Positions 4,646 to 51,171 of a stretch of DNA of 54,736 bases are shown here, piece after piece. A program made the translations under genes and the position numbers. The notes beneath the pieces were generated by a model. That model had not been told where the DNA came from. It did no database searches and worked only from the letters and a program-made list of their open reading frames with translations. This DNA is from Prevotella sp. Its GTDB lineage: Bacteria > Bacteroidota > Bacteroidia > Bacteroidales > Bacteroidaceae. How positions within the stretch are numbered: position 1 is the first letter of the stretch; each line of letters begins with the position of its first letter. The DNA lies in contig JAGCPV010000099.1 of the NCBI GenBank assembly GCA_017965475.1, forward strand, positions 1 through 54,736. The letters are read 5' to 3'.

Positions 4646-5213
4646 GGACGAGCTCCGACAACAGATCCGACAACAGAAGCGACAGTTCACCCCAGAACAA
4701 CTGAGGGAACTGTCGCTTCCTGTTCTCGCCCGTCTGCGTCCTCTTCTGGCTGAGGCTTCCGTCATCATGGCCTACTATTCCCTGCCTGATGAGGTCTGCA
4801 CCCATCTGCTGATCGATGAACTGGTGGCAGAGGGGAAGACCGTCTTACTGCCGAAGGTCATCGATGGCGAGACGATGGAACTGCGCCGCTATACGGGCCG
4901 TGATGATCTGGAGGAAGGGGCCTATCATATTCTGGAACCGGTTGGGGAATTGTTTAAGGACTATGCATCGATAGATGTGGTGCTCGTGCCTGGTCTCGCC
5001 TTCGATGCTGCCGGCCATCGTCTGGGTCGTGGCCGTGGCTACTACGACCGCTTCCTAAACGGGACTGACGGGACTGACCCAAATGCCGATGTCTTCGACT
5101 CGGCAGAGGGGTCTGTCCCCAGAACAAAAACCCTCGGCCTCTGTTTCGACTTTCAGAAAGTAGATGTAGTCCCGACAGACGCCCATGACCGCGCTGTGGA
5201 TATTGTCGTCTAA
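4638..5213 (+). CDS. 5-formyltetrahydrofolate cyclo-ligase with an in-frame repeat insertion
   Basis: A 191-residue enzyme converting 5-formyl-THF plus ATP to 5,10-methenyl-THF. Family landmarks are the N-terminal MRKDELRQQIRQ helix, LVPGLAFD, and the ATP/phosphate loop GRGRGYYDRFL. The ATG at 4638 is preferred over an in-frame TTG 6 nt earlier. Between DRFL and TLGLCFDFQ the protein carries about 22 extra, low-complexity residues (NGTDGT...AEGSVPRTK, residues about 143-165). These are encoded by a dispersed repeat also found near 12.9 kb. The insertion is in frame and lies where the family has only a short loop, so the enzyme is probably functional. Its stop overlaps the convergent dciA-like stop by 4 nt. 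Confidence 0.9.
   Translation: MRKDELRQQIRQQKRQFTPEQLRELSLPVLARLRPLLAEASVIMAYYSLPDEVCTHLLIDELVAEGKTVLLPKVIDGETMELRRYTGRDDLEEGAYHILEPVGELFKDYASIDVVLVPGLAFDAAGHRLGRGRGYYDRFLNGTDGTDPNADVFDSAEGSVPRTKTLGLCFDFQKVDVVPTDAHDRAVDIVV
5091..5122 (+). repeat. Dispersed 32-bp repeat inside the cyclo-ligase gene
   Basis: This stretch matches 12876-12907 on the opposite strand at about 29 of 32 positions (GTCTYCGACTCSGCAGAGGGG, then YCTGTCCCCAG). It contains the inverted core GGGGTCTGTCCCC. It lies in frame inside a conserved enzyme, encoding VFDSAEGSVPR. Related flanking sequence (GGGACTGAC units) extends the element towards 5060. Confidence 0.75.
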
Positions 5214-7359: not shown

Positions 7360-7836
7360 ATGGCCACAGCACTCCATAACCTCAGCGACTACGACTTCTC
7401 GAAGGTGCCCGATGCGTCGAACATGATCTTCGGAGTGGTCGTTGCTGAGTGGAATCCCGAGATTACGGGAGCCTTGCTTGAGGGCTGCGTCTCCACTTTG
7501 GAGAAGCACGGAGCCCTGCCTGAGAATATCCATGTGAAGACCGTTCCCGGATCCTTCGAGCTGATCTACGGTGCCCACCAGATGACGCTTAACGACGGTT
7601 ATGATGCCGTCATCATCCTGGGTTGTGTGATCCGTGGTGAGACTCCCCATTTCGACTATATCTGTCAGGGTGTCACGGAGGGCGTTGCCCGTATGAATGC
7701 CACGAGCAACATCCCCGTCATCTACGGCCTCCTCACCACCAACGATTTCCAACAGGCGAAGGATCGTGCAGGTGGCAAGTACGGCAATAAGGGTGATGAG
7801 TGCGCTGTCGTCGCCATCAAGATGGCAAAGTTCTAA
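7360..7836 (+). CDS. ribH: 6,7-dimethyl-8-ribityllumazine synthase
   Basis: A 158-residue lumazine synthase, the penultimate enzyme of riboflavin synthesis; it condenses the ribitylamino-uracil with 3,4-dihydroxy-2-butanone phosphate. Visible landmarks are [10 protein letters not shown] (substrate loop), [25 protein letters not shown] and [15 protein letters not shown]. The length is normal. It directly follows the TPR gene. No FMN riboswitch is seen upstream. Its stop codon lies at the edge of a dispersed palindromic repeat and it ends with a strong hairpin. Confidence 0.96.
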
Positions 7837-7873
7837 AACCTCCTACTGGGGCCAGGCCCCGAGATAAAGTTTT
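7837..7873 (-). repeat. Dispersed GGGG-CCTGG-CCCC element (copy after ribH)
   Basis: Read on the reverse strand this is ...CTCGGGGCCTGGCCCCAGTAGGAGGTT. The same string of core plus AGTAGGAGGTT occurs at 47392-47415, and core plus AATAGGAGGTT at 12677-12700. It abuts the ribH stop codon. Confidence 0.7.
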
Positions 7874-7910
7874 GGCAGGGAGATCAACATTTCCCTGCCA
7901 TTTTCTTTTG
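7874..7910 (+). terminator. Rho-independent terminator after ribH
   Basis: The 8-bp stem GGCAGGGA/TCCCTGCC with a 10-nt loop is followed by ATTTTCTTTT. On the other strand AAACTTT follows more weakly, so it may also serve the convergent lipase gene. Confidence 0.75.
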
Positions 7911-12121: not shown

Positions 12122-12180
12122 GTCACAGCGGGGTCAGGACACATTGTGACTGTCACAGATTCTCCTGACCCTCTTGTGAC
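12122..12180. repeat. Imperfect 18-bp inverted repeat after the fimbrillin gene
   Basis: GTCACAGCGGGGTCAGGA (12122-12139) pairs with 12163-12180 at 15 of 18 positions; the spacer itself holds a TGTGACTGTCACA palindrome. It contains the GGGGTCAGG half-core seen in the dispersed elements. Confidence 0.6.
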
Positions 12181-12224
12181 AAGATTTTCTGTTCAAATGT
12201 TCATTGTTCATTTGTTCATGTAAC

Positions 12225-12262
12225 ACTTAGTGTCGGGGTCAGGCCCCGACACTAAGTCTTTT
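12225..12262 (+). terminator. Perfect 14-bp hairpin with T tail, made of a dispersed-repeat core
   Basis: ACTTAGTGTCGGGG and CCCCGACACTAAGT flank the loop TCAGG, and CTTTTC follows. The core GGGGTCAGGCCCC is that of the dispersed family. It can end transcription of the fimbrillin operon. Confidence 0.65.
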
Positions 12263-12292
12263 CGTGTGGCTTTTGAAATAATCGCCAGATCG

Positions 12293-12542: not shown

Positions 12543-12740
12543 ATGAACACATTAAATTTGAAAAACATCAACAAGCACGCTCCTTATGGAGTAAGGCACA
12601 GAGAAAACAATTGTTACTCTTTCTATTTCGAAACAGACTTTGGTCTAAAGTACACTATCAGTTTCATGTTAGTGCTGGGGTCAGGCCCCAATAGGAGGTT
12701 TTCGCGCGCGGGCGCGGTAGTAGGAAAACTTAGAAAATAA
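12543..12740 (+). CDS. Small ORF with a repeat-derived C-terminus, probably truncated
   Basis: 65 residues. The first 42 (HAPYGVRHRENNCYSFYFET, then DFGLKYTISFM) look like a genuine protein start; they faintly resemble the N-terminus of DUF6169-type proteins of about 150 residues, but this is a weak recollection. From residue about 43 the reading frame runs through a dispersed GGGGTCAGGCCCC element, giving VLGSGPNRRFSRAG. The same element, in the same frame, gives LGSGPSRRFLMSG in the MFS transporter near 47.4 kb. The gene is therefore most likely a longer gene whose 3' part was lost when repeats invaded. It follows the 52-residue ORF by 25 nt. Confidence 0.45.
   Translation: MNTLNLKNINKHAPYGVRHRENNCYSFYFETDFGLKYTISFMLVLGSGPNRRFSRAGAVVGKLRK
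12676..12705 (+). repeat. Dispersed GGGGTCAGGCCCC element at the end of a small ORF
   Basis: TGGGGTCAGGCCCCA followed by ATAGGAGGTTTT, matching 47391-47415 closely and the reverse of 7837-7861. A GC-rich GCGCGCGGGCGCGG stretch follows. Confidence 0.7.
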
Positions 12741-12808
12741 CCTACCTATCCTGCCTATCCTACACCTAACAAAAAGACCATGGGTGTAGGATGAGCAGGA
12801 TAGGTAGG
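12741..12808. repeat. Long inverted repeat, 26-bp arms
   Basis: Arms 12741-12766 and 12783-12808 pair at 24 of 26 positions around a 16-nt loop rich in A. It could act as a transcription barrier, but it has no U tract of the usual kind and its sequence family recurs at 13147-13215, so it is better seen as a palindromic repeat. Confidence 0.75.
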
Positions 12809-12875
12809 ATAAAAAGTAAATATAACAACTACAGAATGCGCGCGTATGTACGCGCACGAAAGGGAGACTTGGTTG

Positions 12876-12907
12876 CTGGGGACAGGCCCCTCTGCGGAGT
12901 CGGAGAC
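12876..12907 (-). repeat. Intergenic copy of the 32-bp element found in the cyclo-ligase gene
   Basis: The reverse complement matches 5091-5122 at about 29 of 32 positions, including the GGGG-N5-CCCC core. Translation in the corresponding frame gives SDSAEGPVPSN here and FDSAEGSVPRT in the enzyme. Confidence 0.75.
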
Positions 12908-12962
12908 AACAGGCCCAAATGCGGACCCGGTCCCAGCGTTTGTCCCAGCCATTGGGACTTTT

Positions 12963-13000
12963 CTAAAGGGCTCCTTTACGTCGCTAAAGGAGCCCTTTAG
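12963..13000. repeat. Perfect 16-bp inverted repeat
   Basis: CTAAAGGGCTCCTTTA and TAAAGGAGCCCTTTAG are separated by CGTCGC. It is strong enough to form a stable hairpin on either strand. No T tract follows. Confidence 0.75.
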
Positions 13001-13146
13001 CAGCGTAAAGGTCACCTCTACAATTCCAAAGGTTACCTCTACGGATCGGGTGTAGTTTACAATCATGATGTGACACCTATTTAGGTAAACTATTTGCCTC
13101 CTATTCGCACGCGCGTATGTATATAGTTGCTATACATACTTTTTAT

Positions 13147-13215
13147 CCTACACTTCCGACACTCCCTGCACCTTACCCCAAACAGTCTGGGTGTAGGAAG
13201 TGTAGGGAGTGTAGG
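13147..13215. repeat. Second long inverted repeat, 26-bp arms
   Basis: Arms 13147-13172 and 13190-13215 match at 22 of 26 positions (CCTACACTYCC... pattern). Both the arms and the flanking AACAACTA elements resemble the 12741-12860 unit, suggesting two insertions of one composite element. Confidence 0.65.
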
Positions 13216-44471: not shown

Positions 44472-46814
44472 ATGGTTAAATACTTTCAAACAGGGATGAC
44501 CCTTCTTTGTGGTGTGGTCATGACGAGCCTGACCATTCTGATGGCAGGGTGTAACACAAAAGCAGATATGGAACAGCAGGTTGATGAACTTTATGGCAAG
44601 ATGTCGCAGGAGGAGCGCATCGCCCAGTTGAAGAGCATGTATATGGATGATCTCTTCGATGAACAGGGGAATCTGGATACGGCCAAGTGTCGCGAACTGA
44701 TCCCCTATGGTGTTGGACACTTCTCGCAGTTCTGTCTGCAGCAGCCCCGTAATCCGAATGAGTTGCGCGACCGTGCGGCAGCCGTACAGGACTGGCTCAT
44801 CCACAACACGCCCAACGGTATTCCTGCGCTCATGCACGAGGAGGTACTCTCGGGTGTTAACACCGTGGGCTCCACGATCTATCCACAGCAGATCGGACAG
44901 GCCTGTTCCTTCAATCCCGAACTGGCTGAGTTGAAGACCCGCCAGACGAGTACGGCACTGAGGAAGATGGGTGGTATCTTCGCCCTCTCGCCGATGGTCG
45001 ATGTGTGTCGCATACCGTCGTTCAACCGTCTGGAGGAGTCCTATGGCGAGGACGGCTATCTGTCGGCGGTGATGGGTACGGCCTTCGTGAAGGGTCTCCA
45101 GCAGGATGACCTGAAGAAGGGTGTGGGTGCCTGTTCGAAGCATTACCTCGGTTATGGCGGTGGGGGTGATGCCGACGAGAAGGAACTGATGGAGGAGATC
45201 CTGCTGCCCCACGAGACGATGATCCGTCTGGCTGGCAGTAAGGCTGTCATGCCTGGCTATCATGATGTTCACGGTACGAAGTGCGTGGCTAACAGTGAGA
45301 TCCTGCTGGATATCCTGCGCGACTATCTCGGCTTCGACGGTATGGTGGTGAGCGACTATACGGCCATCGACCAGATTCCTGACCTCGACGATGTGGTGAA
45401 GAAGGCCGCTGCTGCCATCAATGGGGGTAATGATGTCGATTTCCCCTTCGGCGCCAACTATCAGCATCTGCAGCAGGCCATCGACCAGGGGCTGATGAAG
45501 CCAGAGGTGCTGGAGCGTGCCGTGAAGGACGTGCTCCGCTTTAAGTTCCGTGCTGGTCTCTTCGATGAGGATGCCTATCTCTACACGGCAGGGGAGATCG
45601 TCCTTGATTCGAAGGAGGAGCGTCAGACGGCCTACGACATCGCCACGCAGTCGGTGGTGCTGTTGGAGAACAATGGGGTGCTGCCGTTGAAGGATGTTAA
45701 GAATATCCTGCTCACTGGTCCTAACGCGAACTCTTTCTGGGCTATGTGCGGCGACTATACCTATCCCGCCATGTCGTATTTCTGGAAGAAGAAGGAGGAT
45801 GTGCCTGATAATCCACATATCGTGAATCTGCTGGAGGGTATGACGAAGAGCAAGCCAGAGGGCGTCAACCTGATGTACTCTCGTGGCTGTGACTGGACGG
45901 AAGAGATTGAGACGAAATACAGCGAACTGGGTGACGAACGTGCTTGGGAGTACGAGATCCTGCACCGTAAGGTGGATTCGGGCGAGAAGGCCGACAAGGC
46001 TGAGGCTCTTCGTATGGCGAAGCAGGCTGATGTGATTGTAGCTGCCATGGGTGAGAACGTGATGCTCTGTGGTGAGAACCGCGATCGTCAGACGCTCCGT
46101 CTGCCAGGTAAGCAGGAGCAGTTTGTCGAAGAACTGATCAAGACGGGCAAGCCCGTGGTACTCGTGATGTTCGGAGGTAGGGCACAGGTGGTGTCTGGTC
46201 TGGCAGAGAAATGTGCTGCTGTTATCCAGGCCTGGTATCCGGGTGAGGAAGGTGGTGACGCTGTGGCCGATATCCTGTATGGTAAGGTGTCGCCATCCGC
46301 TAAACTCTCAGTCAGCTATCCTAATATGGAGATCAATGAGGCTATTTGCTATAACCGTTCTATCGAGAAGGATCCGCGTGTGGCATGGCCCTTTGGATAC
46401 GGTCTGACCTACACCACGTTTGAATACAGCAACCTGAAGACCACAGTCACTGAACAGGGTGTCAACCTGACGTTTGAGGTGAAGAATACCGGCAAAGTGG
46501 CTGCCGATGAGATTGCGCAAATCTATCTGTCGCCGACTTCCACAGATCAGCCTCTGCGCCCCATCCAGTTGCAGGGCTTTACCCGCGTGTCTCTGAAACC
46601 GGGTGAGAGCAAGACGGTGAAGGCGACACTGTATATCGAACAGTTCGGCTTCTACAGTCATGAGGGTGAACGCCGCTGGAACATCCTGCCGGGAGCGTAT
46701 ATCGTGAAGGTGGGTGCATCATCGACAGATATCAGACTGCAGGAGACGGTCACACTCAACGGCGAACCCTTCAGTATGTCGTTGCGTGAACACTATTTCG
46801 CTGTCTGCCAATAA
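44472..46814 (+). CDS. Glycoside hydrolase family 3 lipoprotein
   Basis: A 780-residue exo-glycosidase. Signal peptide with lipobox MAGC (C27). GH3 N-terminal barrel about 50-350 with KHYLGYGGGG and the nucleophile D295 in GMVVSDYTAID; GH3 C-terminal domain about 390-620 with the acid/base region (AAMGENVMLCGENRDRQTL); fibronectin-III-like domain about 660-760. Beta-glucosidase or beta-xylosidase are the usual activities. The stop overlaps the MFS start (TAATG), so the sugar released is probably imported by that transporter. Confidence 0.9.
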   Translation: MVKYFQTGMTLLCGVVMTSLTILMAGCNTKADMEQQVDELYGKMSQEERIAQLKSMYMDDLFDEQGNLDTAKCRELIPYGVGHFSQFCLQQPRNPNELRDRAAAVQDWLIHNTPNGIPALMHEEVLSGVNTVGSTIYPQQIGQACSFNPELAELKTRQTSTALRKMGGIFALSPMVDVCRIPSFNRLEESYGEDGYLSAVMGTAFVKGLQQDDLKKGVGACSKHYLGYGGGGDADEKELMEEILLPHETMIRLAGSKAVMPGYHDVHGTKCVANSEILLDILRDYLGFDGMVVSDYTAIDQIPDLDDVVKKAAAAINGGNDVDFPFGANYQHLQQAIDQGLMKPEVLERAVKDVLRFKFRAGLFDEDAYLYTAGEIVLDSKEERQTAYDIATQSVVLLENNGVLPLKDVKNILLTGPNANSFWAMCGDYTYPAMSYFWKKKEDVPDNPHIVNLLEGMTKSKPEGVNLMYSRGCDWTEEIETKYSELGDERAWEYEILHRKVDSGEKADKAEALRMAKQADVIVAAMGENVMLCGENRDRQTLRLPGKQEQFVEELIKTGKPVVLVMFGGRAQVVSGLAEKCAAVIQAWYPGEEGGDAVADILYGKVSPSAKLSVSYPNMEINEAICYNRSIEKDPRVAWPFGYGLTYTTFEYSNLKTTVTEQGVNLTFEVKNTGKVAADEIAQIYLSPTSTDQPLRPIQLQGFTRVSLKPGESKTVKATLYIEQFGFYSHEGERRWNILPGAYIVKVGASSTDIRLQETVTLNGEPFSMSLREHYFAVCQ

Positions 46815-48085
46815 TGGACAGGCTCTGGAACAGGAACTATTGTAAGGTGATGACAGCGAATTTTACGCTGTTTTTCGCCTTCTATGTGCTGACGCCTCTG
46901 CTGCCGCTCTATCTGAGTGAGCATTTCGGGGCGACGAAGGATGTTATTGGCTTGGTGCTTTCAGGCTATACGATCACGGCTCTGCTGTTCCGTCCGTTCA
47001 GCGGTTATGTGGTCGATTCCTTTCCGCGAAAGACGGTGCTGATGATCGCCTTCGGGGCTTTTGCCATCTTCTTCGCGGGTTATCTCGCCGCTTCCACCTT
47101 GTTGTTGTTTATGATCGTGAGAACACTTCACGGTGGTCCCTTTGGTGCACTCACGGTGGCTAACTCCACAGCGGCCATCGATGTTCTGCCATCCAGTCGT
47201 CGTACGGAGGGTATCGGGTATTACGGTCTGAGTAACAACCTCGCTATGGCCATTGCTCCGACCATTGGTATCTTCATCTACCAACTCACTGACAGTTTCG
47301 AGTTCCTCTTCTGGCTGGCACTTATCGTGGCCTGCGCAGGCTGGCTCGTCGATGCCACAGTGAGCATTGGGGACAGGTCTGACTTTAACTTGGGGTCAGG
47401 CCCCAGTAGGAGGTTCTTGATGTCGGGGCCTGGCCCCAAGATAAAAAAACTGTCGTGGGACAGGTTCTTTCTGGTGCGTGGGTGGCTGATAGGTGTCAAC
47501 ATGGTGGCCTTTGGCTTTAGCTTTGGTGTGCTCAGTAACTACCTCGCAATCTATGGGAAGGAGGTGATGGGTATCATGGGGGGTACGGGCACCTATTTTA
47601 TGCTCTGCTCCGTCGGCCTGATCCTCTCGCGCCTGCAGGGAGGCAAAGCACTGCGCAATGGTCGTGTCACCCATAATGCAGGAGAGGGAATGGTCATCTC
47701 GTTGGTGGGATATACCTTATTCATCCTGATGCCCACGTTGGCAGAATGTTCAATGGTCAATGTTCAATGGTCAATGGCTCTCGGCTATTACGGTTCTGCC
47801 CTGCTCATCGGCTTGGGCAACGGTCATATGTGGCCCGCCTTCCAGAACATGACCATCAACGTGGCCCGTAACAACCAGCGCGGCACTGCCAACTCCACCA
47901 TCCTTATCTCGTGGGATATCGGTATGGGTCTTGGTATCCTTGTGGGAGGTATCGTTTCAGAACTCTTAGGCTATGGTGCTGCTTTCTGGACTGTCGTCCT
48001 CGTCAATGCCTCTGGTGTCGCCTGTTTCTTCCTTGCTACCAAGGCCTTCTTCCTCCGCAGGAACTTGAATGAGTCCGTGTATTGA
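46814..48085 (+). CDS. MFS sugar/drug-type transporter carrying repeat insertions
   Basis: A 423-residue protein with 12 membrane helices; the first loop is YVVDSFPRKTV and the third region RTLHGGPFGALTV. It overlaps the GH3 stop by 1 nt and likely moves the product of that enzyme. The loop between helices 6 and 7 has about 28 extra residues (185-212, including LGSGPSRRFLMSGPGPK) encoded by two dispersed GGGG-CCCC palindromes, kept in frame. A second oddity, at residues about 311-322 (ECSMVNVQWSM), is a perfect 14-bp tandem repeat. Both lie in loops, so the carrier is probably functional. Confidence 0.85.
   Translation: MDRLWNRNYCKVMTANFTLFFAFYVLTPLLPLYLSEHFGATKDVIGLVLSGYTITALLFRPFSGYVVDSFPRKTVLMIAFGAFAIFFAGYLAASTLLLFMIVRTLHGGPFGALTVANSTAAIDVLPSSRRTEGIGYYGLSNNLAMAIAPTIGIFIYQLTDSFEFLFWLALIVACAGWLVDATVSIGDRSDFNLGSGPSRRFLMSGPGPKIKKLSWDRFFLVRGWLIGVNMVAFGFSFGVLSNYLAIYGKEVMGIMGGTGTYFMLCSVGLILSRLQGGKALRNGRVTHNAGEGMVISLVGYTLFILMPTLAECSMVNVQWSMALGYYGSALLIGLGNGHMWPAFQNMTINVARNNQRGTANSTILISWDIGMGLGILVGGIVSELLGYGAAFWTVVLVNASGVACFFLATKAFFLRRNLNESVY
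47364..47445 (+). repeat. Double dispersed palindromic element in the MFS gene
   Basis: Core 1 GGGGTCAGGCCCC (47392-47404), then AGTAGGAGGTTCTTGATGTC, then core 2 GGGGCCTGGCCCC (47425-47437) and AAGATAAAAAAA. Core 1 with its right flank matches the copies at 12677 and (reversed) 7837; a partial GGGGACAGG stands at 47369. The insertion keeps the reading frame. Confidence 0.8.
47747..47774 (+). repeat. Perfect 14-bp tandem duplication in the MFS gene
   Basis: TGTTCAATGGTCAA occurs twice head to tail. Because 14 is not a multiple of three, gain or loss of one copy would shift the frame of the transporter. Confidence 0.8.
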
Positions 48086-48098
48086 TTTTTTACTTTTG

Positions 48099-48173
48099 GC
48101 GTAGGTTGAAACCCTGAAAAACGTAGCTAGGGGGTAGCAAGGAGCTAGCTAGGGCGTAGAAAGGGCGTAGGTT
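48099..48173. repeat. Intergenic GTAGCTAGGG-type repeat cluster
   Basis: GGCGTAGGTT begins (48099-48108) and closes (48164-48173) the stretch; between lie three degenerate GTAGCTAGGG/AGCTAGCTAGGGCGTAG units. It fills the convergent gap between the MFS and pantothenate kinase genes and covers the kinase stop codon. Confidence 0.6.
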
Positions 48174-50358: not shown

Positions 50359-51171
50359 TTATTTACTACGTTTAATCATCTCACGCATGATCTCTGTCAT
50401 CAGTGGCTGAGCCATGTTGGCAGCCTCCTGTACTTCCTCGTGGCTGACCTCTACAGGATCGTCGAAGCCACCAAGGTCGGTGATAACGGAAATACCAAAG
50501 GTGCGGATGCCACAATGATGGGCTACGATAACCTCTGGTACAGTGGACATGCCGACGGCATCACCACCCAGCAGACGGTACATCCTATATTCCGCAGGGG
50601 TCTCGAAGGTAGGACCCTGAACACCGACATATACGCCGTGCTGCACTTTGATGCCTTTCTCCTCTGCAATCTTGTCGGCAAGTGCCACCAACGACAAGTC
50701 GTAGGTCTCGTGCATATCAGGGAATCGCGGTCCCGTAGGGAAATTCTTGCCGCGCAATGGATGCTCAGGGAAGAAATTGATATGGTCGGTGATAATCATC
50801 AGATCGCCAATCTGGAATTGCGGGTTCATACCACCAGCGGCATTGGAGACAAAGAGCGTCTTGATGCCCAACTCGTACATCACCCGCACGGGGAAGGTCA
50901 CTTCCTTCATCGAGTAACCCTCGTAGAAGTGGAAACGGCCCTGCATGGCCATGATGTCAATACCTCCGAGCTTGCCGAAGATCAGTTTCCCAGAATGCCC
51001 CTCTACCGTTGATACAGGGAAGTTTGGGATGTCCTGATAAGGAAATTCGTAGGTGTCAGATATTTCTGAAGCTAATTGTCCGAGGCCTGTCCCCAGTACG
51101 ATGGCTGTCTTGGGGCTTGTGGTCATCCTTTGTTTTAGCCAAGATGCTGTTTCTTGAATTCTTTCGTACAT
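50359..51171 (-). CDS. Purine-nucleoside phosphorylase (trimeric type)
   Basis: A 270-residue enzyme cleaving purine nucleosides with phosphate. Motifs: VLGTGLGQLASEI (phosphate site), VEGHSGKLIFG, MQGRFHFYEGYSM, VSNAAGGMNPQFQIGDLMII (the PNP signature), VQGPTFETPAEYR and SVITDLGG. The start MYERIQETASW is the normal family N-terminus; the frame is open 30 codons further upstream, all within lpxK. It lies inside the last 116 nt of lpxK and joins thiL without a gap. Confidence 0.92.
   Translation of the reverse strand: MYERIQETASWLKQRMTTSPKTAIVLGTGLGQLASEISDTYEFPYQDIPNFPVSTVEGHSGKLIFGKLGGIDIMAMQGRFHFYEGYSMKEVTFPVRVMYELGIKTLFVSNAAGGMNPQFQIGDLMIITDHINFFPEHPLRGKNFPTGPRFPDMHETYDLSLVALADKIAEEKGIKVQHGVYVGVQGPTFETPAEYRMYRLLGGDAVGMSTVPEVIVAHHCGIRTFGISVITDLGGFDDPVEVSHEEVQEAANMAQPLMTEIMREMIKRSK

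Follow-up and report, generated by a model that had tools for sequence, protein, structure and literature searches.

Dispersed bacterial palindromes have been linked to Y1 tyrosine transposases in more than one form. In E. coli and Pseudomonas, REPINs are inverted pairs of palindromes found with RAYTs, Y1 transposases which are encoded by a single-copy gene, act in trans and are bracketed by repeats in a REPtron-like manner. In TIRtrons, the Y1 gene (TIRYT) encodes a long protein and is flanked by inverted repeats instead of GTAG REPs, some of these repeats being dispersed (accessible text of PMC3733652). According to the part of PMC6006769 available to us, 20 of 26 TIRYTs belong to TnpAY1 subclass 2.1, and REP-like sequences were not reported near the genes of this subclass.

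Palindromes that lie in frame within conserved genes are known from the Rickettsia palindromic elements and from the intragenic GTAG and CGTC REPs of Opitutus, Xanthomonas and others. In the accessible text of PMC3733652, intragenic REPs including dimers and REPs supplying stop codons are already described, different REPs occur at about the same recB site in two Xanthomonas species, and no associated transposase is reported for the CGTC repeats, including RPE-4 and RPE-6 of R. conorii. No case of coding palindromes in Prevotella or other Bacteroidales was found in the open-licence literature searched. The original prediction regarded a Bacteroidales counterpart of the Rickettsia elements as new. 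This claim has to be narrowed, since coding palindromes are already known outside Rickettsia as GTAG/CGTC REPs of several phyla (same accessible text), and what is new is a TIRYT-like case in Bacteroidales.

Here we describe GGGG-N5-CCCC palindromes of a Prevotella draft genome which, judged by their sequence, are REP/REPIN-like and come closest to the TIRYT type. We propose, with a probability of roughly 0.83, that they are non-autonomous elements which owe their spread to a Y1 (HUH) tyrosine transposase of RAYT/TIRYT kind, acting in trans and encoded by a single-copy gene.

The palindrome family in the window and in its genome

The window is a stretch of 54,736 nucleotides from contig JAGCPV010000099.1 of the Prevotella sp. 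assembly GCA_017965475.1. Five cores had been located in it beforehand and all are present (7848-7860, 12235-12247, 12677-12689, 47392-47404 and 47425-47437), together with a sixth exact core at 12878-12890. When up to one mismatch was allowed on both strands, 16 core matches were counted in the window, compared with 0.74 on average and never more than 3 in 100 shuffles. The window contains the following features:

46814..48085, + strand: MFS transporter gene, 423 aa, with the element in one loop (open reading frame; Pfam MFS_1, 145 bits; 80 homologues aligned)
47364..47450, + strand: composite in-frame insert, made of a partial third hairpin TTGGGGACAGGTCTGACTTTAACTT and then two cores 33 bp apart (sequence; DNA fold)
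47392..47404, + strand: core GGGGTCAGGCCCC, read G-S-G-P (sequence match)
47425..47437, + strand: core GGGGCCTGGCCCC, read G-P-G-P (sequence match)
7835..7873, + strand: single element right after the stop codon of a gene which we take to be lumazine-synthase-like, core at 7848-7860 (model match, E 9e-11; overlap with the stop)
12223..12259, + strand: single intergenic element, a near-perfect palindrome, core at 12235-12247 (model match, E 6e-10; DNA fold)
12668..12701, + strand: single element in the 3' part of the small open reading frame 12543-12740 (GSGPNRRF), core at 12677-12689 (model match, E 4e-9; open reading frame)
12872..12900, + strand: type C element, a core followed by TCTGCGGAGTCGGAGAC... 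(model match, E 9e-6; the same type lies in the DegT-like gene of locus L158)
12122..12180, + strand: member of a second family, GTCACA..GGGTCAGGA.. (pattern match at 12122-12142; remainder by eye)
5098..5129, - strand: possible degenerate element (weak model match, E 0.0024)
51084..51101, - strand: possible degenerate element (weak model match, E 0.0014)

The element forms a real dispersed family in the draft genome that holds the window (2.8 Mb in 189 contigs, completeness 85%, contamination 2.5%). Exact core matches amount to 77 on the forward and 77 on the reverse strand, compared with 0 and 0 for the reversed pattern used as a control, which bears out the suggestion that the core is dispersed above chance. 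Self-complementary cores score on both strands, hence distinct sites are fewer than these strand matches; at least 139 distinct exact-core sites were identified (95 and 44 more), grouped in 104 clusters. The core is GGGGTCAGGCCCC at 107 of the 139 sites and GGGGACAGGCCCC at 15, while 15 have a self-complementary centre and 2 another core. A sequence model of 39 positions, built from 48 copies, matched 147 of 150 scored candidates at E<=0.001; as 855 candidates were obtained at first look, the family comprises at least 147 matches and the true total may exceed this number. Most copies examined fall outside Pfam-supported genes, and many directly follow stop codons.

The unit consists of the 13-bp core flanked by two arms of 12 to 13 nt; outwards, conservation drops almost to zero past about 14 nt. 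The arms are of a few kinds (AGTAGGAGGTTTT, [AG][AG]NACTAAGTTTTT and GAGATAAA...), and in a third kind of unit, type C, the core runs on into TCTGCGGAGTCGGAGAC. Units are found singly or, at many sites, in inverted pairs as in REPINs. The two cores of a pair are spaced at 34 bp (21-nt spacer) or 57 bp, the 57-bp pairs enclosing a partial third hairpin. Unlike in REPIN/RAYT systems, no 5' GT[AG]G tetranucleotide is conserved at the foot of the hairpin: the arms vary, AGTAGGAGG is present in 22 of 190 arms, and the tetranucleotide is absent as a conserved end in 48 aligned copies. Neither do these 48 copies have a conserved CGTC tag at one end, so that the units differ from the GTAG and CGTC REPs of other phyla in being without either tag. 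Membership of the canonical GTAG REPs was rejected, the tag being unconserved. Read by hand, the common unit is free of stops in four of its six frames, and the frame used most often gives NLxLGSGPxx, a short turn rich in Gly, Pro and Ser.

When folded as single-stranded DNA, the MFS insert is predicted to form one long hairpin (-19.3 kcal/mol, z -4.0), and two other pairs gave z-scores of -6.9 (L003) and -9.2 (L006). The single copy folded at 12212-12270 also reached a z-score of -6.9, and the one at 7830-7880, which has unlike arms, folded no better than shuffles (z 0.06).

Other repeats are present in the same regions. A mosaic block of about 530 bp at 12669-13200 contains two elements, CGCGCG stretches and GGAGCCCTTTA repeats, and recurs piecewise in many of the other loci examined in the same genome (for example L321, with 80% over 555 bp, L296, L002, L316 and L022). 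The GTCACA..GGGTCAGGA family, with one copy at 12122-12180, is also found in G031, another member of the genus, where it lies in mnmA and beside a transposase gene. The MFS gene holds a second repeat-like stretch, TTCAATGGTCAATGTTCAATGGTCAATGG, which is in frame at 47749-47777 (MVNVQWSM), and short AGCTAGGGGGTAGC / GGGCGTAGG repeats lie just 3' of the gene at 48120-48172.

A candidate transposase and its distribution in the genus

The absence of a transposase from the window had led to the guess that a RAYT-type enzyme is encoded elsewhere in the genome. A search of the draft genome with Pfam Y1_Tnp (PF01797) indeed returned one intact gene on contig C118 (52.5 bits, against a cut-off of 23), which has elements on both sides and whose product may move them, and one degenerate match on contig C6. 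The intact gene is located as follows:

L026 1090-1920 (G000:C118, outside the window), - strand: intact Y1/HUH transposase gene, 276 aa (PF01797)

Cores bracket this open reading frame at positions 1041 and 1098 of the locus on one side, a pair which overlaps the 3' end of the gene, and at 1987, 2030 and 2087 on the other side. With one intact and one degenerate gene in an 85%-complete draft, there is about one full-length gene per repeat family and no IS-like amplification. The match on contig C6 (L027) contains two internal stops and is probably a decayed copy.

The motifs NHVH and YIHQNP are invariant in eight aligned relatives of the transposase. A C-terminal helix-turn-helix, which is a feature of TIRYTs and subclass 2.1, was matched weakly (HTH_58) in three of eight transposase proteins (best E 0.0018), with no helix-turn-helix match in the protein of the window's own genome at E<=1, and no solved structure related by sequence was found in the PDB at E<=0.01. 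A further difference from the REPIN/RAYT systems is that the protein scores 60.7 bits against NCBIfam NF047646 (REP_Tyr_transpos), under the curated cut-off of 80. In the available part of PMC6006769, subclass 2.1 is characterized by NHVH, FQ and Y[IV]HLNP; the protein described here has NHVH and FQ but YIHQNP. The same source describes TnpAY1 subclass 2.6 (RAYT group 5), which resembles the present case in its presence in Bacteroidetes, in its motifs NH[LIV]H and YIH[QN]NP and in atypical structures that lie at the gene and recur elsewhere. Assignment to this group was ruled out, as the protein has FQ rather than WQ and 276 aa compared with a median of 179 (same source). On its motifs, the putative enzyme thus combines features of subclasses 2.1 and 2.6. 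The GGGGWSAS motif reported for TIRYTs in the accessible text of PMC3733652 fits the half-core GGGGTCAG/GGGGACAG, and GGGGTCAG half-cores flank the gene on both sides. A long protein is a further point in common with TIRYTs. In contrast to them, the repeat is here a composite palindrome which is strongly amplified and many of whose copies lie in frame within genes.

In a genus sample of 150 genomes, a transposase match at E<=1e-10 was present in 30, including the genome of the window. One locus was taken per genome, and four were dropped (two with short flanks and two with partial genes), leaving 26 loci. An inverted match of at least 11 nt is shared by both flanks at 17 of these (own locus included), compared with 41 of 650 swapped pairs (Fisher p 1e-13), and is missing at the nine others. 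The palindromes at the transposase genes differ from locus to locus. The exact core was matched in 29 of the 150 genomes, with counts ranging from 0 (121 genomes) to 154 in the genome of the window. Five genomes have at least 8 core matches, four of which have the transposase (p 0.006, own genome included), and the fifth, G066, combines 8 core matches with the lack of any transposase match at E<=1e-10. Of the 30 transposase-bearing genomes, 10 had any core match, compared with 19 of the 120 others (p 0.04). Across 26 transposase-bearing genomes other than that of the window, the correlation between transposase identity and core count was weak and not significant (rho 0.31, p 0.12). In G088, which has the closest relative of the transposase (71% identity), GGGGCC[AT]GGCCCC forms lie at the gene, and this form accounts for almost all of the listed core matches of the genome. 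The sequence model, with up to 150 candidates scored in each genome, found 15 matches in G088, 14 in G031, 8 in G090, 7 in G066 and 1 in G119, and none in 14 further members of the genus.

In-frame copies within conserved genes

As the original prediction had noted, the element is read in the same frame in the MFS gene (GSGPSRRF) and in the open reading frame starting at 12543 (GSGPNRRF). That prediction places the MFS copy in the loop between helices 6 and 7. Its estimate of about 28 added residues agrees with the extent of the visible repeat in the MFS loop, which covers about 87 nt at 47364-47450, or 29 codons. The net gain, at 16 residues (37 in the window compared with 21 in L058, the best homologue listed), is below this estimate because the loop, to judge from the sequences compared, is a variable linker which is home to other repeats in other species. 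The best 80 of 300 homologues found were aligned, and the element is absent from all of them. These homologues come from Prevotella, Xylanibacter ruminicola and others, mostly from rumen assemblies, some genomes giving more than one row. The loop DNA of 16 homologues was inspected by eye, and in several of them other inverted repeats occupy the same loop in frame: AATCATGGGGACTGG...CCTGTCCCCGTGATTC or close variants in L060, L061, L073 and L074, CCCCCTAAGTTAGGGGG pairs in L075 and L084, and longer inverted repeats in L064, L072, L090 and L121.

In the draft genome as a whole, 14 in-frame insertions were found in 13 Pfam-supported genes, encoding the MFS transporter, MurB, MnmA, SufS, CobJ-CbiC, a U32 peptidase, a DegT aminotransferase (two insertions), GH97, GT2, PrmC, RimO, RsmF and a double ABC ATPase. 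In-frame open reading frames lacking a Pfam match (L160, L153) and short or uninformative ones were left out of the 13, and CobJ, present on two contig ends (L020 and L308), was counted once. The two cobJ elements, on contigs C30 and C141 respectively, differ slightly (NRR compared with SKR), which suggests strain variants within the draft genome. Eleven of the host genes were compared with relatives and all eleven have relatives without the element; GH97 and GT2 were identified from the open reading frame and the Pfam match alone, and in GT2 the Glycos_transf_2 match ends near the insert.

The relatives of MurB and MnmA were the 19 best other loci, and those of the genes added later were loci above a shared-word threshold. 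For MurB, which has matches in 135 other genomes, the element is missing in all 19 aligned relatives and the length of the linker is constant. It is missing in the eight alignable relatives of CobJ, and L212 has another, longer insert. Among eight relatives of SufS, five have no palindrome at this place, G031 has the same element, and G136 and G119 have other palindromes. The 19 MnmA relatives are without this element, and the same linker holds a different palindrome in G090 and G031 and short ones in G025 and G131. The mnmA palindrome of G031, which belongs to the GTCACA..GGGTCAGGA family, is matched 13 times in that genome when both strands are counted; two of these matches are the mnmA pair itself and one adjoins a transposase gene. 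Relatives of DegT (eight rows, two being pieces of one contig), U32, PrmC, RimO, RsmF and ABC are likewise without the element, although their linkers vary in length, and the linker of one PrmC relative (L337) is longer than that of the genome studied here. For U32, PrmC, RimO, RsmF and ABC, an in-frame copy is seen but a clean empty site is not. Tandem or inverted repeats of several kinds lie in frame in the U32, RsmF and ABC linkers of other genus genomes (L237, L238, L344, L349 and L351). In the ABC linker of G103 (L351), these are GGGGAC..GTCCCC palindromes, which by eye are like those at the transposase gene of G103 itself (L032).

Relatives of known structure in the PDB are shorter at the place of the insert by 6 residues for MurB, 7-8 for SufS and 9 for the relative of PrmC. 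The RimO relative 4jc0 aligned through the insert place and is not shorter, its linker being about equal in length, and the alignment of MnmA with its PDB relative stops short of the insert.

The genes murB and mnmA are usually essential. The draft genome has a single match to each at E<=1e-60, both with the element; if the two genes are essential here, the inserted forms must therefore work, although a second copy is possible in an incomplete draft. The cores are read as GSGP, GPDP or similar in 10 of the 13 genes. Other frames are found in GT2 and in the first core of PrmC (GVRP), and in the second core of PrmC and the ABC gene (third frame). A preference for the GSGP/GPDP frame is suggestive at best, with p 0.046 against one half and 0.0016 against one third, the null being of our own choosing.

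In genes whose empty linker is short and varies little, the gain was smaller than the element: MurB gained 18 nt for about 36, CobJ 21 for about 33, and SufS about 18 to 24 for about 36. Either insertion removes some of the target or linkers shrink later.

Possible origin and spread of the elements

The position of the elements relative to genes allows for a different origin. In 31 of 72 clusters, the cluster ends between -9 and +15 nt from a stop codon, compared with 8.9% when 2880 placements were drawn at random within these loci, and seven of these ends are stops within the element's own arm. The clusters came from the first 95 sites, and open frames of at least 80 codons were considered, or 50 when running off the locus. 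Since many arms also have the form of a hairpin followed by a T-run, the elements could be mainly functional RNA or DNA signals, such as bidirectional intrinsic terminators, selected at gene ends, with a transposase nearby by chance and in-gene copies as accidents. However, the random placements took in coding as well as intergenic DNA, so the enrichment at stop codons partly mirrors intergenic location. A role as terminators, which we hold to be quite unlikely, also has to contend with the elements found to either side of the transposase gene, with the many related genes having palindromes of their own, with exact core counts that vary widely across the genus (154 here, 0 in 121 of the 150 genomes), and with in-frame copies in 13 genes.

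The in-frame copies themselves could be read in two other ways. Loops might be ancestral, or have grown by slippage or recombination at hypervariable linkers, the element being a by-product of local repeat growth; the MFS, U32, PrmC, RimO, RsmF and ABC linkers do vary among homologues, often with tandem or inverted repeats, and the RimO linker of 4jc0 is about as long. Such growth is nonetheless very unlikely, as the same 39-nt unit lies at unrelated loci and relatives of MurB, SufS and CobJ without a palindrome have short, near-constant linkers. Alternatively, the copies may be beneficial and kept by selection, as mRNA hairpins or adaptive loops, rather than tolerated as passengers. It is consistent with a benefit that the same linkers (MnmA, SufS and ABC) hold different palindromes in different species, and that the only MurB and MnmA matches in the draft have the element; yet neutral tolerance equally predicts recurrence at permissive linkers, the palindromes differ, and most relatives examined have none, which leaves a selected benefit unlikely.

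We therefore favour spread by the Y1 transposase. One strand of an element would form a hairpin, and a longer hairpin would arise from two inverted copies; presumably the transposase would recognise this single strand, cut it and rejoin it. Copies landing in surface loops or domain linkers would survive because four of the six frames of the unit are free of stops and the commonest of these gives a Gly/Pro/Ser-rich turn, and such inserts may be neutral. As far as sequence comparison allows, the system would work like a REPIN-RAYT pair acting in trans, with TIRtrons as its nearest likeness. The gain in the host genes, being smaller than the element, counts against this explanation, as plain insertion without loss does not account for it. 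Further points against it are G066 with its core matches but no transposase match, the weak correlation of transposase identity with core count, the nine transposase loci that share no inverted flank match, the length variation of many host linkers and the 85% completeness of the draft. Our confidence is also slightly reduced by linkers that are long without the element, as in the RimO structure and in relatives of PrmC.

Coding palindromes are here tied to a candidate enzyme in the same genome, whereas the accessible text of PMC3733652 found none for the CGTC repeats, those of Rickettsia included. The family also adds a non-GTAG case from Bacteroidales, in which the host genes are numerous and can be set against element-free relatives. 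Prevotella and Xylanibacter ruminicola are represented among the relatives by named strains, and if these bear the elements or the transposase, movement and the neutrality of the loops become testable. A more tentative idea, which may well prove wrong, is that in Prevotella-like rumen bacteria, families of transposase-linked palindromes have become translatable, with a stop-free main frame that gives a harmless turn rich in Gly, Pro and Ser, and so can colonise coding sequence, the same housekeeping linkers being refilled by different families across species. If this is true, RAYT/TIRYT enzymes would continually generate diversity among the protein loops of the genus.
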